Shown here one piece after another: positions 12,406-61,412 of a stretch of DNA of 64,000 bases. The translations under genes and the position numbers were made by a program. The DNA comes from Phosphitispora fastidiosa (GTDB taxonomy: Bacteria; Bacillota; Thermincolia; Thermincolales; UBA2595): positions 124,001 to 188,000 of the forward strand of contig NZ_JAHHUL010000003.1 in the NCBI RefSeq assembly GCF_019008365.1, read 5' to 3'. How positions within the stretch are numbered: position 1 is the stretch's first letter; each line of letters begins with the position of its first letter. Under the pieces are notes generated by a model. The model saw only the letters and a program-made list of their open reading frames with translations. It did no database searches and was not told the DNA's origin.

Positions 12406-12429
12406 TGTCTTAAAAATAGTATTAAACAA

Positions 12430-12507
12430 GCAGATCACGTAACTGGCGGATAGTGGGGGCACCCACAGGGAGCGTGATTGGAGAAAGATTATCGACCGCC
12501 TGGGTAG
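12430..12507 (+). promoter_or_regulatory. ZTP (pfl) riboswitch
   Basis: The helix ATCACG/CGTGAT (12434-12439 with 12473-12478) encloses the family signatures ACTGGCGGA, GTGGG and CACAGGGAGC. A linker then leads to the second conserved element ACCGCCTGGGTA (12495-12506). ZTP riboswitches sense ZMP/ZTP, the AICAR nucleotide that builds up when 10-formyl-THF runs short, and switch on folate and purine genes. The gene downstream encodes AICAR transformylase, the enzyme that consumes ZMP, which strongly supports the call. Confidence 0.9.
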
Positions 12508-12530
12508 ACTAGAGCCCAGGCGGTATTTTA
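12496..12530 (+). terminator. riboswitch expression platform terminator
   Basis: CCGCCTGGG and CCCAGGCGG form a 9-bp stem with a 10-nt loop, followed by TATTTTATT. The left arm is the conserved 3' element of the ZTP aptamer, so ligand binding should prevent the stem and allow transcription to continue. Confidence 0.88.
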
Positions 12531-52487: not shown

Positions 52488-53135
52488 ATGAGCAGAGAGG
52501 ATATTCTGAACAAACTGAAGGATTCAATTGAGAAGCTGGACACAGGTATGGCCGAAGCGGCAGCCAAGGAGGCAAAAGCAGCAGGGATAGAGGCCATGGA
52601 TGCCATTCAAAACGGTCTCTCCCAGGGTATGAATACCATCAGTGATCTTTTTGATGAAGGTGAACTGTATGTACCACAAATACTTGTGGCTGCAGAGGCC
52701 TTTGAAAAAGGAGTAGCTATTTTAACTGCAGATATGCTGGAAGCAGAGCGTAACAAGACCAAGGCCGGAAAGGTAATCTGCCACACTGTTGAGGGTGATA
52801 TTCACGATATCGGCAAGAACATCGTGAAGATAATGCTAATTGCCAGTGGTTTTGAGGTAATTGATTTAGGCCGGGATGTACCGGTGGATGAGGTTGTCCG
52901 CAAGGCAATCGAAGAGGGAGTGGACATTATCACAGGTTCAGCCCTGATGACCACAACTATGCCTTCACAGCGAGATATCATCAAGGTCCTTGAGGAAGAA
53001 GGCTACCGTGACAAGATCAAGTGCATGTTCGGCGGGGCTCCGGTATCCCAGGAGTGGGTAGACCAGATTGGTGCCGACGCTTATGGGGACAATGCAGCTG
53101 AAGCTATTAGCAAAGCTAAGGAACTGATGGCATAA
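52488..53135 (+). CDS. mtmC: monomethylamine corrinoid protein, copy 1
   Basis: It carries the corrinoid that accepts the methyl group from MtmB and passes it on. The 215 residues have an N-terminal four-helix cap (about 1-88) and a Rossmann B12-binding domain with the DxHxxG signature D104-I-H106-D-I-G109; His106 is the lower cobalt ligand. The later SALMTTTMPSQ and GGAPVSQEW segments line the cofactor. AAGGAGGTGA precedes ATG, and mtmB follows 19 bp downstream. It differs from copy 2 only at residues 3 and 4 (RE against KQ). Confidence 0.94.
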   Translation: MSREDILNKLKDSIEKLDTGMAEAAAKEAKAAGIEAMDAIQNGLSQGMNTISDLFDEGELYVPQILVAAEAFEKGVAILTADMLEAERNKTKAGKVICHTVEGDIHDIGKNIVKIMLIASGFEVIDLGRDVPVDEVVRKAIEEGVDIITGSALMTTTMPSQRDIIKVLEEEGYRDKIKCMFGGAPVSQEWVDQIGADAYGDNAAEAISKAKELMA

Positions 53136-54543
53136 AGGAGAAAGGAGGTAAAGTATGGCTCTCGCAAAGAAAGTAACGGTTTTTGATGTTTTCGACCGGG
53201 CTAAAACCGGGAAGAAAGTTAATGAGAACGACTGGGATTATAAGATTATTCCCCAAACAGCCAGCAGATTAAAAGAGAAGTATGGCATAAAAATGGACAA
53301 AAAAGTCATCGTGCCTACTGATAAGGCAATGATTGACAACCTGTTCAAGGCTGGTTTGGAAATGCTGGTTGAATGCGGTATTTACTGTATGGATACCGGG
53401 CGTGTCATAAAATACACCGAAGAAGAAATACTGACATCTGTAAATGCAGCGCCGAGCCGTGTTGTGCTCGGGGAAGGCAAGGATGCAGTGATAATGGAAA
53501 CCCGGAGCTACCAGGATTCCCGTCCTCCTATAATTCAGGGGGGACCAACCGGGGCGCCGGTTTCAGAGGACATGTTTATGGCACTGCACCAGTCATATGC
53601 TACAGAACCACTGGTAAACACAATAGTTGACGGAGTGCTGCAAACTATCAACGGACATGACCCCACACCGGGAAGTCCGTGGGAGATAGCAGCCGTTAAG
53701 TCTGAAGCCATGTTAATCCGGGCCGCCCAGGCAAGAGCAGGCCGCCCCGGGATGGCATTGTAGGGGAACGAGACATCATTATCCGCTGCCGGTGTAATCG
53801 CTGCTGATTTCCCGGGCGGAATGCGGGCTTCTGACAGCCATGAGGTATCCCAGCTAAATGAGCTGAAGATTGACGTAGGTGCGTTAGCCTTTACTGCTCA
53901 TTATGTACTGGCCGGAGATGTTATCATGTGTGAACAGATGCCTATTTACGGGGGTTATGCCGGAGGGCTGGAAGAGACCACGATAGTAGATGTGGCCACA
54001 ACTCTGAATGCCTTTATCATGACCCAGGCAACCTGGCACCTGGATGGTCCGATTCATGTGCGCTGGGGCATTACTACAGCCAGAGAGGCTCTGGCGGTGG
54101 CAGGCCACTGTGCCATGGCGATTGAGGCCAATACCAATTTGATGCTGGGTAACCAGTATTACACCATCGCCGGACCGTGTACGGTAATGTGCCTGCTGGA
54201 GACAGCAGCCCAAGCCATTACAGATACGGCCAGCGGGCGGGAAATACTGTCAGGCGTAGCCTCTGCCAAGGGGGTTGCTACCAACTATACCACCGGTATG
54301 GAAGCCCGGATGATGGCCGAGGCCGCCAGGGCTGTGGCTGGTATGGAGACTGATAAGATTAATGCGATCCTTGACAAATTAGTTGCCATGTATGAAAAAG
54401 ACTATAAAACGGCGCCTAAAGGCAAGCCGTTCCAGGAGTGTTACGATGTTGTCCGCCTTGTCCCGACCCAGGAATACCTGGATATCTATGATGAGGCAGT
54501 TAAAATCCTTACCGAATTAGGGCTCGATTACTGGAAGAAGTAA
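52498..54543 (+). repeat. 2,046-bp duplicated mtmCB segment, copy 1
   Basis: Appears identical to 57960-60005 (offset 5,462 bp). All protein frames, including non-coding frames, give the same translations. The match starts at codon 4 of mtmC and stops exactly at the mtmB stop codon. Confidence 0.93.
53155..54543 (+). CDS. mtmB: monomethylamine methyltransferase with in-frame UAG (pyrrolysine), copy 1
   Basis: It transfers the methyl group of monomethylamine to the corrinoid of MtmC. The gene is read through TAG 53761-53763 (codon 203), giving 462 residues with pyrrolysine between GRPGMAL and GNETSLSAAG. Length, flanking residues and UAG position agree with methanogen MtmB, where Pyl202 binds the amine. 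Conserved parts on both sides (IIQGGPTGAPVSEDM; HLDGPIHVRWGITTAREAL) show one protein, not two. AAAGGAGG precedes ATG. A strong terminator follows. An ordinary annotation would split it into 202- and 240-residue pieces. Confidence 0.96.
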
Positions 54544-54556
54544 AAACATATAGAAA

Positions 54557-54590
54557 AAGTCCCGGTCTGTTCGAGCACAGACCGGGACTT
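54557..54590 (+). terminator. rho-independent terminator after mtmB1
   Basis: AAGTCCCGGTCTGT and ACAGACCGGGACTT form a 14-bp perfect stem around TCGAGC, followed by AATTAAAC. It ends the first mtmCB transcript. The second copy has no such terminator. Confidence 0.87.
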
Positions 54591-57869: not shown

Positions 57870-57886
57870 TTGGCATTAATTTTGCA
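57870..57886 (+). promoter_or_regulatory. sigma-54 promoter of mtmC2-mtmB2
   Basis: TTGGCATTAATTTTGCA has the exact GG-N10-GC spacing (GG 57872-57873, GC 57884-57885), 63 bp before ATG. With no terminator after mtmB2, it may also drive pylT and the pyl genes. Confidence 0.88.
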
Positions 57887-57949: not shown

Positions 57950-58597
57950 ATGAGCAAACAGGATATTCTGAACAAACTGAAGGATTCAATTGAGAAGCTG
58001 GACACAGGTATGGCCGAAGCGGCAGCCAAGGAGGCAAAAGCAGCAGGGATAGAGGCCATGGATGCCATTCAAAACGGTCTCTCCCAGGGTATGAATACCA
58101 TCAGTGATCTTTTTGATGAAGGTGAACTGTATGTACCACAAATACTTGTGGCTGCAGAGGCCTTTGAAAAAGGAGTAGCTATTTTAACTGCAGATATGCT
58201 GGAAGCAGAGCGTAACAAGACCAAGGCCGGAAAGGTAATCTGCCACACTGTTGAGGGTGATATTCACGATATCGGCAAGAACATCGTGAAGATAATGCTA
58301 ATTGCCAGTGGTTTTGAGGTAATTGATTTAGGCCGGGATGTACCGGTGGATGAGGTTGTCCGCAAGGCAATCGAAGAGGGAGTGGACATTATCACAGGTT
58401 CAGCCCTGATGACCACAACTATGCCTTCACAGCGAGATATCATCAAGGTCCTTGAGGAAGAAGGCTACCGTGACAAGATCAAGTGCATGTTCGGCGGGGC
58501 TCCGGTATCCCAGGAGTGGGTAGACCAGATTGGTGCCGACGCTTATGGGGACAATGCAGCTGAAGCTATTAGCAAAGCTAAGGAACTGATGGCATAA
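57950..58597 (+). CDS. mtmC: monomethylamine corrinoid protein, copy 2
   Basis: The 215 residues are identical to copy 1 except residues 3-4 (KQ), with the same D104-x-H106-x-x-G109 corrinoid motif. GAGGAGGTGA precedes ATG. The leader differs from that of copy 1 except for the sigma-54 core and the ribosome site. mtmB2 follows 19 bp downstream. Confidence 0.94.
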   Translation: MSKQDILNKLKDSIEKLDTGMAEAAAKEAKAAGIEAMDAIQNGLSQGMNTISDLFDEGELYVPQILVAAEAFEKGVAILTADMLEAERNKTKAGKVICHTVEGDIHDIGKNIVKIMLIASGFEVIDLGRDVPVDEVVRKAIEEGVDIITGSALMTTTMPSQRDIIKVLEEEGYRDKIKCMFGGAPVSQEWVDQIGADAYGDNAAEAISKAKELMA

Positions 58598-60005
58598 AGG
58601 AGAAAGGAGGTAAAGTATGGCTCTCGCAAAGAAAGTAACGGTTTTTGATGTTTTCGACCGGGCTAAAACCGGGAAGAAAGTTAATGAGAACGACTGGGAT
58701 TATAAGATTATTCCCCAAACAGCCAGCAGATTAAAAGAGAAGTATGGCATAAAAATGGACAAAAAAGTCATCGTGCCTACTGATAAGGCAATGATTGACA
58801 ACCTGTTCAAGGCTGGTTTGGAAATGCTGGTTGAATGCGGTATTTACTGTATGGATACCGGGCGTGTCATAAAATACACCGAAGAAGAAATACTGACATC
58901 TGTAAATGCAGCGCCGAGCCGTGTTGTGCTCGGGGAAGGCAAGGATGCAGTGATAATGGAAACCCGGAGCTACCAGGATTCCCGTCCTCCTATAATTCAG
59001 GGGGGACCAACCGGGGCGCCGGTTTCAGAGGACATGTTTATGGCACTGCACCAGTCATATGCTACAGAACCACTGGTAAACACAATAGTTGACGGAGTGC
59101 TGCAAACTATCAACGGACATGACCCCACACCGGGAAGTCCGTGGGAGATAGCAGCCGTTAAGTCTGAAGCCATGTTAATCCGGGCCGCCCAGGCAAGAGC
59201 AGGCCGCCCCGGGATGGCATTGTAGGGGAACGAGACATCATTATCCGCTGCCGGTGTAATCGCTGCTGATTTCCCGGGCGGAATGCGGGCTTCTGACAGC
59301 CATGAGGTATCCCAGCTAAATGAGCTGAAGATTGACGTAGGTGCGTTAGCCTTTACTGCTCATTATGTACTGGCCGGAGATGTTATCATGTGTGAACAGA
59401 TGCCTATTTACGGGGGTTATGCCGGAGGGCTGGAAGAGACCACGATAGTAGATGTGGCCACAACTCTGAATGCCTTTATCATGACCCAGGCAACCTGGCA
59501 CCTGGATGGTCCGATTCATGTGCGCTGGGGCATTACTACAGCCAGAGAGGCTCTGGCGGTGGCAGGCCACTGTGCCATGGCGATTGAGGCCAATACCAAT
59601 TTGATGCTGGGTAACCAGTATTACACCATCGCCGGACCGTGTACGGTAATGTGCCTGCTGGAGACAGCAGCCCAAGCCATTACAGATACGGCCAGCGGGC
59701 GGGAAATACTGTCAGGCGTAGCCTCTGCCAAGGGGGTTGCTACCAACTATACCACCGGTATGGAAGCCCGGATGATGGCCGAGGCCGCCAGGGCTGTGGC
59801 TGGTATGGAGACTGATAAGATTAATGCGATCCTTGACAAATTAGTTGCCATGTATGAAAAAGACTATAAAACGGCGCCTAAAGGCAAGCCGTTCCAGGAG
59901 TGTTACGATGTTGTCCGCCTTGTCCCGACCCAGGAATACCTGGATATCTATGATGAGGCAGTTAAAATCCTTACCGAATTAGGGCTCGATTACTGGAAGA
60001 AGTAA
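57960..60005 (+). repeat. 2,046-bp duplicated mtmCB segment, copy 2
   Basis: Second copy of the segment at 52498-54543, same strand. Sequence on both sides is unrelated or clearly diverged. Confidence 0.93.
58617..60005 (+). CDS. mtmB: monomethylamine methyltransferase with in-frame UAG (pyrrolysine), copy 2
   Basis: The protein sequence is identical to copy 1, 462 residues with pyrrolysine at codon 203 (TAG 59223-59225). Unlike copy 1, no terminator follows; instead a structured RNA region and pylT lie 17 and 116 bp downstream. This copy is thus linked to the genes that make and load the amino acid it needs, and the two may be transcribed together from the sigma-54 promoter at 57870. Confidence 0.96.
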
Positions 60006-60022
60006 GGTAACATCTGACTGAT

Positions 60023-60103
60023 GGGGCAGGCAGCCTGCGGCGCAGGGATACTGTGATGTGTCCGTTCGGCTTTTGCCGGCGGAGAGGCATCGCTGCCTGC
60101 CCC
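60023..60103 (+). ncRNA. cloverleaf-like structured RNA between mtmB2 and pylT
   Basis: GGGGCAGGCAGC (60023-60034) pairs perfectly with GCTGCCTGCCCC (60092-60103), a 12-bp closing stem. Inside are three hairpins: CTGC-GGC-GCAG (60035-60045), GGATAC-TGTGAT-GTGTCC (60046-60063) and CGGC-TTTT-GCCG (60067-60078). No T-run follows, so it is not a simple terminator. It may be a processing signal that frees tRNA-Pyl, an attenuator or an inserted repeat. No known RNA family was recognised. Confidence 0.55.
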
Positions 60104-60121
60104 CCGGTCGTTTAATTACAT

Positions 60122-60193
60122 GGAGGGTTGATCGGCAAGATCATGGAGACTCTAAATCTCCACAGCCGGGTTGGACTCCCGGACTCTCCTCCA
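60122..60193 (+). tRNA. pylT: tRNA-Pyl (CUA anticodon)
   Basis: The 72-nt tRNA shows the hallmarks of tRNA-Pyl: a 7-bp acceptor stem (GGAGGGT/ACTCTCC), a single base before the D stem, a 5-nt D loop (GATC-GGCAA-GATC) and a 6-bp anticodon stem (TGGAGA/TCTCCA). The loop CTCTAAA holds CTA at 60152-60154. The variable loop has three bases, and the T loop TTGGACT lacks TTC. CCA is encoded. The discriminator base reads T, where known tRNA-Pyl have G. It decodes UAG in mtmB. Confidence 0.95.
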
Positions 60194-60236
60194 ATTAACC
60201 GGCGGGGACTCTAAAAAATGCCGAGGAGGTATGGAA

Positions 60237-60566
60237 ATGAGTTTACCCGTACAGAAAACAGAGGCTTCAAGCCCCAAAAAGGCAAAGAAACGTTATTTCC
60301 GGAAACATGAGGATTTAGCCGGTGTTATAGAAAAAATAAAGCTCTGGCCGTCCCGGTCAGGAGTGCTTCACGGTGTCAGGAAAATTACTGTCAAGGGCAG
60401 ACATATTGAGATAGTTACCCATTGCGGCAATCAGTTAGATATTAAAAATTCAAAGACAAGCCGGGTTTCCCGCTGGTTGAGAAACAAATGGTATGCCAAA
60501 GCCTGTCCAAAGTGTAAAATACCTACATGGAAGTTGGAGAAATTTTCTTCAACCTCTTTTCAGTAA
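60237..60566 (+). CDS. pylSn: pyrrolysyl-tRNA synthetase N-terminal domain protein
   Basis: Start ATG 60237 is chosen because GAGGAGG lies 7 nt upstream; ATG 60231 is too close. The 109 residues match the separate PylSn of bacteria, a small basic tRNA-Pyl-binding protein (KRYFRKHEDLAGVIEKIKLW; RHIEIVTHCGNQLDIKNSK; a final CPKC zinc-type pair). It follows pylT by 43 bp. In Desulfitobacterium, pylSn lies at the far end of the cluster; here it directly precedes pylSc, in the same frame, separated by TAA and five codons. Confidence 0.93.
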   Translation: MSLPVQKTEASSPKKAKKRYFRKHEDLAGVIEKIKLWPSRSGVLHGVRKITVKGRHIEIVTHCGNQLDIKNSKTSRVSRWLRNKWYAKACPKCKIPTWKLEKFSSTSFQ

Positions 60567-60581
60567 AGGGGGCATTCTGTT

Positions 60582-61412
60582 TTGAAACTTGCCTTTACTG
60601 TTACACAGAAACAGAGGCTTATCGAGCTTGATGCGGCGGAGGGAATTGATGGGCTTGTTTTTATTAATGCGCAGGAACGAGACCATTCATTTAAAAAGAT
60701 AAATCAGGAATTGGTCCTTAAGAATAAAGAGCGTTTGGAAAGACTGCGGTCAGAAAGACTGCGTCCATCTATCAGAGAGCTTGAACAGATTTTGGTTAAC
60801 TGCCTGAACAGGGCTGGTTTTGTTGAAGTAAATACACCTACCACGATAGCGAAGGAAATGTTGGTGAAAATGGGGATTACTGCGGAACATCCTCTATGGA
60901 ACCAGGTATACTGGACTGATAAAAACAGCTGTCTGCGTCCGATGTTAGCCCCTAACCTGTATTACCTGTTAGGACGGCTGGCAAAAATCTGGCCAAGGCC
61001 TATTCGAATCTTTGAAATAGGACAGTGTTTTCGCAAGGAGTCAAAAGGGGCTAAACACCTTTCGGAATTCACCATGCTCAATCTGGTTGAAATGGGCACT
61101 GCCGGCGATACCGGGGAACGATTGGCCGAATTGGCAGACCTGGTTATGAATGCGGCAGGTTTACCCTACAGCCTGGATGCGGAAGACTCGGAAGTTTATG
61201 GTGACACTACTGATGTTATGGCCGACAATGTTGAAATTGCCTCCGGAGCCACTGGGCCTCATCCTTTAGATGGCAGCTGGAATATTACTGAACCATGGGT
61301 TGGCCTGGGTTTTGGGCTGGAGCGCATGGTTATGGTGAAAGAAGGGTTTCAGAATATCCGCCGGGTGGGACGCGGCCTGATGTACCTGGATGGTGCCAGA
61401 TTGAATATTTAA
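60582..61412 (+). CDS. pylSc: pyrrolysyl-tRNA synthetase catalytic domain
   Basis: Class II synthetase that charges tRNA-Pyl with pyrrolysine. Start is TTG 60582 after AAAGGGGG. The 276 residues show class II motif 2 (FEIGQCFRKES) and motif 3 (GLGFGLERMVMVKEG). The Pyl pocket region LRPMLAPNLYYLLGRL is conserved. The N-terminal tRNA-binding part is supplied by PylSn. Its frame equals that of pylSn. Confidence 0.95.
   Translation: MKLAFTVTQKQRLIELDAAEGIDGLVFINAQERDHSFKKINQELVLKNKERLERLRSERLRPSIRELEQILVNCLNRAGFVEVNTPTTIAKEMLVKMGITAEHPLWNQVYWTDKNSCLRPMLAPNLYYLLGRLAKIWPRPIRIFEIGQCFRKESKGAKHLSEFTMLNLVEMGTAGDTGERLAELADLVMNAAGLPYSLDAEDSEVYGDTTDVMADNVEIASGATGPHPLDGSWNITEPWVGLGFGLERMVMVKEGFQNIRRVGRGLMYLDGARLNI

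Follow-up and report, generated by a model that had tools for sequence, protein, structure and literature searches.

The closest described counterparts of the element reported here are the stems of the selective RNA processing and stabilisation (SRPS) type in the cip-cel cluster in Ruminiclostridium cellulolyticum (PMC4423207, PMC8219983, PMC10311766) and the leader stem of tRNA-valV in the valVW operon of Escherichia coli (PMC9433436). Ruminiclostridium stems located within operons 3' of highly expressed genes mark processing sites and accompany higher levels of the upstream transcript, and 28 out of 33 lack a U run (PMC4423207). They stabilise the processed pieces, the cuts marked by them are often found just downstream, and the stem itself may be the cut signal (PMC10311766). 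Stems are considered stabilisers if the 10 nt following them contain at most five U residues and no U run longer than three (PMC8219983). The valVW stem likewise precedes a tRNA that is transcribed together with it, as part of the 5' leader, but it is reported to inhibit RNase P (PMC9433436), unlike the role proposed below. The element between mtmB2 and pylT shares with the cip-cel stems a stable stem within a same-strand cluster, an upstream gene whose product is expected in excess, the lack of a proper U run, and a position that is kept while the sequence is free to vary. In contrast to the cip-cel stems, the next gene is a tRNA, and the cutter could therefore be RNase P. The predicted energy of the whole domain is -57.8 kcal/mol, compared to -6.6 to -31.8 kcal/mol for the SRPS stems in PMC4423207.

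The window, which denotes the whole stretch of 64,000 nt analysed here, is part of a genome of 4.09 Mb (G000). The locus starts with mtmC1-mtmB1, which is separated by other genes from mtmC2-mtmB2; the element comes next, followed by pylT, pylSn, pylSc, and additional pyl genes. From family knowledge, we take these reading frames to be mtmC, mtmB, pylSn, and pylSc. The features of the locus are the following:

54557 to 54590, plus strand: terminator-like stem after the twin gene mtmB1, used for comparison
57871 to 57886, plus strand: putative sigma-54-type -24/-12 site TGGCATTAATTTTGCA before mtmC2, an exact pattern match
57950 to 58597, plus strand: mtmC2, reading frame for a corrinoid protein
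58617 to 60005, plus strand: mtmB2, monomethylamine methyltransferase, identical to mtmB1, with an in-frame TAG at 59223-59225 (PYLIS_1 at 59223)
60006 to 60121, plus strand: mtmB2-pylT intergenic region carrying the structured element, as defined by folding and comparison
60122 to 60193, plus strand: pylT, tRNA-Pyl (CUA) with encoded CCA, called by ARAGORN
60237 to 60566, plus strand: pylSn, reading frame with the start chosen by its ribosome-binding site
60582 to 61412, plus strand: pylSc, reading frame

Both mtmB copies contain an in-frame TAG and a match to PYLIS_1. The two mtmCB copies (52498-54543 and 57960-60005) show no difference over 2046 bp but part ways at the first base 3' of the stop codon, and their identity suggests either a recent duplication or gene conversion. 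Despite this homogenisation of the genes, the two 3' ends differ. Both carry a stem in the 3'-UTR of the same gene, but the one behind mtmB1 is a compact hairpin, whereas the one behind mtmB2 is a large branched domain of 96 nt that is followed by the pyl genes. Some further features were recorded in the window. A ZMP/ZTP riboswitch (Rfam RF01750) is located at 12429-12512. In tRNA-Pyl, a U at 60190 precedes the encoded CCA (CTCTCC-T-CCA), as is the case in L010, L021, L058, L054, L078, and L079; most other copies compared have a G. The leader of pylSn contains GGGGACTC at 60204-60214 (GAGGACTC in L058), which resembles the 5' half of the anticodon arm of tRNA-Pyl, and this stretch is kept in five loci of the Thermincola group.

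A first-pass annotation of this DNA had described a perfect 12-bp stem ending 18 nt before pylT and enclosing three short hairpins in a four-way, cloverleaf-like shape. The stem and its distance of 18 nt to the tRNA-Pyl start at 60122 were confirmed, but only two inner hairpins, and thus a three-way junction, were present in both the MFE and the centroid structure. The parts of the fold are:

60015 to 60020, plus strand: 5' strand of the basal helix, pairing with 60105-60110 in the MFE structure; four orthologues retain its GAC/GTC pairs
60023 to 60034, plus strand: 5' arm of the perfect 12-bp stem, GGGGCAGGCAGC
60092 to 60103, plus strand: 3' arm of the perfect 12-bp stem, GCTGCCTGCCCC
60110 to 60121, plus strand: broken U tail GTTTAATTACAT, which is also the 5' leader of the tRNA and ends in A(-2)U(-1)
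60112 to 60116, plus strand: leader strand (UUAAU) of a weak helix formed by the leader and trailer of tRNA-Pyl, with AUUAA at 60194-60198 as its partner

For the interval 60006-60121 an MFE of -59.1 kcal/mol was calculated (z = -4.7), a value not reached by any of 200 shuffled sequences. Among folds of 110 nt in the window, the element ranks first in stability, since none of 3196 tiles from both strands matched it, also after correction for G+C content, in a ranking of energies without shuffles. The fold is predicted to persist when the temperature is raised to 55 or 65 °C. Inverted repeats with perfect 12-bp arms and spacers of 3 to 60 nt were detected 18 times at eight distinct places in the window, compared to zero to two matches in each of 20 mononucleotide-shuffled controls.

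Orthologues of the element at the same place were identified in G002 (96%) and G001 (76%), both assigned to the same genus as G000, in UBA2595, and, in a shortened form, in G003. A covariance check in relatives, as proposed in the first-pass annotation, revealed three double changes, two wobbles, and no broken pair among 15 outer pairs in four orthologues. In addition, inspection by eye shows that one G-C pair of the basal helix is exchanged for A-U in G003. Because the arms were placed by eye and UBA2595 is the single lineage contributing double changes, the evidence from covariation is good but not overwhelming. The loops measure 57, 57, 53, and 29 nt across the four orthologues and also differ in sequence. 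While the interior of G001 refolds, that of UBA2595 (L021, with the same sequence as L036) and of G003 (L011) forms one long hairpin. Therefore, it is the outer helix and not the cloverleaf that is conserved. A tRNA-like cloverleaf was rejected on these grounds, as its shape is not maintained among relatives and ARAGORN called no tRNA in the element. RNAalifold was also applied to two other sets of junctions. In the Desulfosporosinus-type set (n = 5), 38 pairs were predicted. Ten of these show a double change, 13 include one or more broken or gapped cells, and the divergent L126 seems to be the source of most of both. In the Sporomusa-type set (n = 4), two of 21 pairs showed a double change and six a broken or gapped cell. 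Alignment A4 was left out due to misalignment of UBA2595.

According to both BLAST and a covariance model, the element occurs once in the genome, and a search of plasmids yielded nothing. The covariance model matched a hairpin after a CTP-synthase-like gene in G005 (E = 0.0055), which was taken as a chance hit, and gave a further match in G002 (E = 0.25). Being a strong inverted repeat between two genes, the element could be a mobile or passive repeat without any role as RNA, as had been considered in the first-pass annotation. However, the scattered copies expected for a simple repeat were not detected, the element holds the same position in orthologues, and its helix has accumulated compensatory changes, which leaves this explanation with a next to negligible probability. 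No Rfam family matched the element; a single sub-threshold match to Collinsella-1 was obtained on the opposite strand (E = 2). A riboswitch or T-box of the Rfam type was rejected because of the missing family match and the lack of a conserved unpaired core, the interior being variable in length and sequence.

To place the element among other pyl loci, a tRNA-Pyl pattern that excludes Methanosarcina-type genes by design was used, and 114 stretches were obtained from the genome collection. Of 118 distinct pylT loci analysed, 21 have mtmB directly upstream as judged by blastp; in addition, pylT is located behind a truncated mtmB in L009 and L080. Values of z below -3 were found in 17 of the 21 mtmB-pylT junctions but in only nine of 61 other same-strand gaps of 60 to 200 nt from L028-L141 (p = 3e-7), with the reservation that the junctions are not independent of each other (about ten sequence clusters by eye, five near-identical; L131 and L035, identical in their intergenic sequence, are both counted) and that the control gaps all stem from a mechanical ORF rule (at least 120 aa) applied to L028-L141 and were shuffled 40 times each instead of 200 times. 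The junctions not reaching this value are those of L106, L042, L126, and L045, the last with a z of -0.19. In the 110 nt directly preceding pylT, z averaged -3.45 in 20 mtmB loci compared to -0.72 in 94 others, considering loci with at least 110 nt upstream after removal of duplicates; L009 and L080 were assigned to the others despite their truncated mtmB, which works against the claim. The stem sequences themselves fall by eye into about ten unrelated clusters. Several junctions contain long helices of 15 to 22 pairs, as would be suitable for a double-strand cleavage site of the RNase III type parting the mtmCB mRNA from the pyl mRNA. In the window, however, the perfect part comprises just 12 bp, and helix lengths vary among junctions; such a cleavage site is considered very improbable.

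Stems were also detected where mtmB is not followed by pylT. All nine mtmB ends without pylT within 700 nt form stems, with energies from -24 to -49 kcal/mol, and z values for the 100 nt past the stop codon were below -3 in eight of them, L023 (-2.3) being the exception. In G003, contig C19 (L011) has kept the mtmB end together with its stem, although no match to pylT was obtained and no tRNA was called. From these cases we conclude that the stem goes with the 3' end of mtmB and, since it occurs without pylT, that RNase P is not necessary for its role. Positions 1-1596 of L011 represent a decayed pyl cluster, in which pylSn and pylSc are reduced to pieces, while the next gene, pylB-like, is kept with 80% identity. 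A second pylT of G003 is located on contig C15.

Applying the stabiliser rule as written in PMC8219983, 20 of the 21 junction tails were classified as stabilisers, one as mixed, and none as terminator, with stem boundaries that reach or come near the tRNA in L010, L041, and L045. With the other boundary, 19 of 21 tails were stabilisers, and L051 and L072 fell outside. The same rule fits seven of the nine mtmB ends without pylT, irrespective of the boundary chosen, and therefore does not discriminate; for this reason, U tracts did not serve to tell mtmB ends followed by pylT from those lacking it. The 10 nt past the stem in the window, TTTAATTACA, contain five U with a longest run of three and are thus at the limit of the rule. 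Since a Ruminiclostridium stem with equal numbers, a worked example in PMC8219983, is called mixed, that is, stabiliser plus terminator, some termination is possible. The absence of a T-run asserted in the first-pass annotation holds for U runs of at least four, though a broken U run, GUUUAAUUAC, is present. The stem followed by GUUUAAUUAC might therefore act as a leaky intrinsic terminator, stopping part of the polymerases and letting less transcript enter pylT and the pyl genes. The tail of L021 also shows five U in 10 nt and a run of three, L074 has TTATATTAT after the last C run, and L051 has a run of four. On the other hand, a U tail is absent in many junctions, for example in L041, L042, L087, and L126. 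Intrinsic terminators are expected to combine a compact G+C stem with a U run behind it, but the element is a large branched domain with a U run of three. A terminator scan covering loops of 3 to 8 nt gave no match in 60006-60121; a large loop would escape it. Altogether, weak termination at the element is possible, whereas a leaky terminator as its explanation appears unlikely.

The position of the stem in front of a tRNA raises the question of an influence on maturation. The stem could slow or regulate the processing of tRNA-Pyl by RNase P, either directly or by competing with a leader-trailer helix; the leader stem-loop of valVW is reported to inhibit this enzyme (PMC9433436). A leader-trailer helix was predicted in five loci of the Thermincola group, with one pair being U-G, U-A, or C-G by eye across species. 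This helix and the basal one can be in competition, which makes a brake on the maturation of the tRNA conceivable. However, leader-trailer pairing is weak (p = 0.065 for UBA2595 as well as for G001), and the best 30 of 112 do not include the window; within the Thermincola group, the helix was strong by shuffling only in contig C15 of G003 (0 of 200). Furthermore, no sequence is conserved in the interior of the element, contig C19 of G003 has retained the stem without pylT, and in L087, L051, L042, and L127 the stem is 26 to 94 nt away from pylT. The first two points, together with the lack of an Rfam family, also speak against the switch tying tRNA supply to demand that had been suggested in the first-pass annotation, and a brake or switch is regarded as rather improbable. 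The operon valVW consists of tRNA genes and is not known to include a large mRNA upstream of them. In L127 and L104, the leader-trailer helix encloses tRNA-Pyl and its 3' side enters a U-rich stretch, resembling a tRNA in a terminator loop.

The transcription of pylT was addressed by searching for sigma-54 boxes in loci whose upstream sequence comprises 120 nt or more. None of 23 mtmB loci but 18 of 92 other loci contained such a box at a distance of up to 200 nt from pylT (shuffle control, 1 of 2300). In these 18 loci, for example L029, L031, and L053, pylT has a sigma-54-type box of its own, with a start 44 to 123 nt upstream. Since boxes near pylT are missing in mtmB loci, pylT behind mtmB probably relies on read-through from mtmB for its expression, which fits the read-through into pylT anticipated in the first-pass annotation. 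As in the window, A(-2)U(-1) forms the end of the leader in 57 of 118 pylT loci and in 14 of the 23 with mtmB. This dinucleotide is optimal for RNase P of E. coli (PMC9433436).

The element is best read as a real, conserved, single-copy RNA stem that acts as a 3' stabiliser or processing stem in a known style. It is a stable intergenic stem at the 3' end of a gene within a same-strand cluster that presumably forms one operon, as is characteristic of SRPS stabilisers. With modest confidence, we lean towards a 3'-UTR stabiliser stem of the clostridial SRPS kind, which would cap the mtmCB mRNA after a cut downstream, plausibly by RNase P; among the three ideas of the first-pass annotation, RNase processing is the best supported one. 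Judging from gene order and the missing promoter, we infer co-transcription, in which a transcript from the sigma-54 promoter would run through mtmB2 into pylT and pylSn. This long transcript would be cut 3' of the stem, the obvious candidate being RNase P, whose site at 60122 follows from the tRNA, and an mtmCB mRNA ending 18 nt past the 12-bp stem would be left, while the tRNA and the pyl mRNA would be released separately. The very stable terminal stem should block 3'-to-5' exonucleases, so that the methyltransferase mRNA would stay abundant. Partial termination at the broken U tail may contribute.

A stem between mtmB and pylT is not mentioned in the titles or the beginnings of abstracts among the literature matches listed, which include PMC2933860 and PMC11467909. 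Two routes to pylT expression become apparent from the comparison, an own sigma-54 promoter, as in the 18 of 92 loci, or read-through past the mtmB stem. For the latter, we tentatively put forward, as a possibility that is open to considerable doubt, that wherever pylT adjoins mtmB the excision of tRNA-Pyl by RNase P itself creates the stable, stem-capped end of the mtmB mRNA, and that this arrangement was reached in several lineages with unrelated stems. Excision of a tRNA as the cutting step would be a candidate twist on the known SRPS style. To our knowledge, it has been little studied how bacteria balance an abundant methylamine methyltransferase against scarce pyrrolysine machinery. The balance proposed here would be achieved with one transcript, from which the tRNA is cut out and in which the stem protects the enzyme part only. 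If this is true, each long-lived mtmB message would correspond to one released tRNA-Pyl, the very tRNA that its UAG codon needs.
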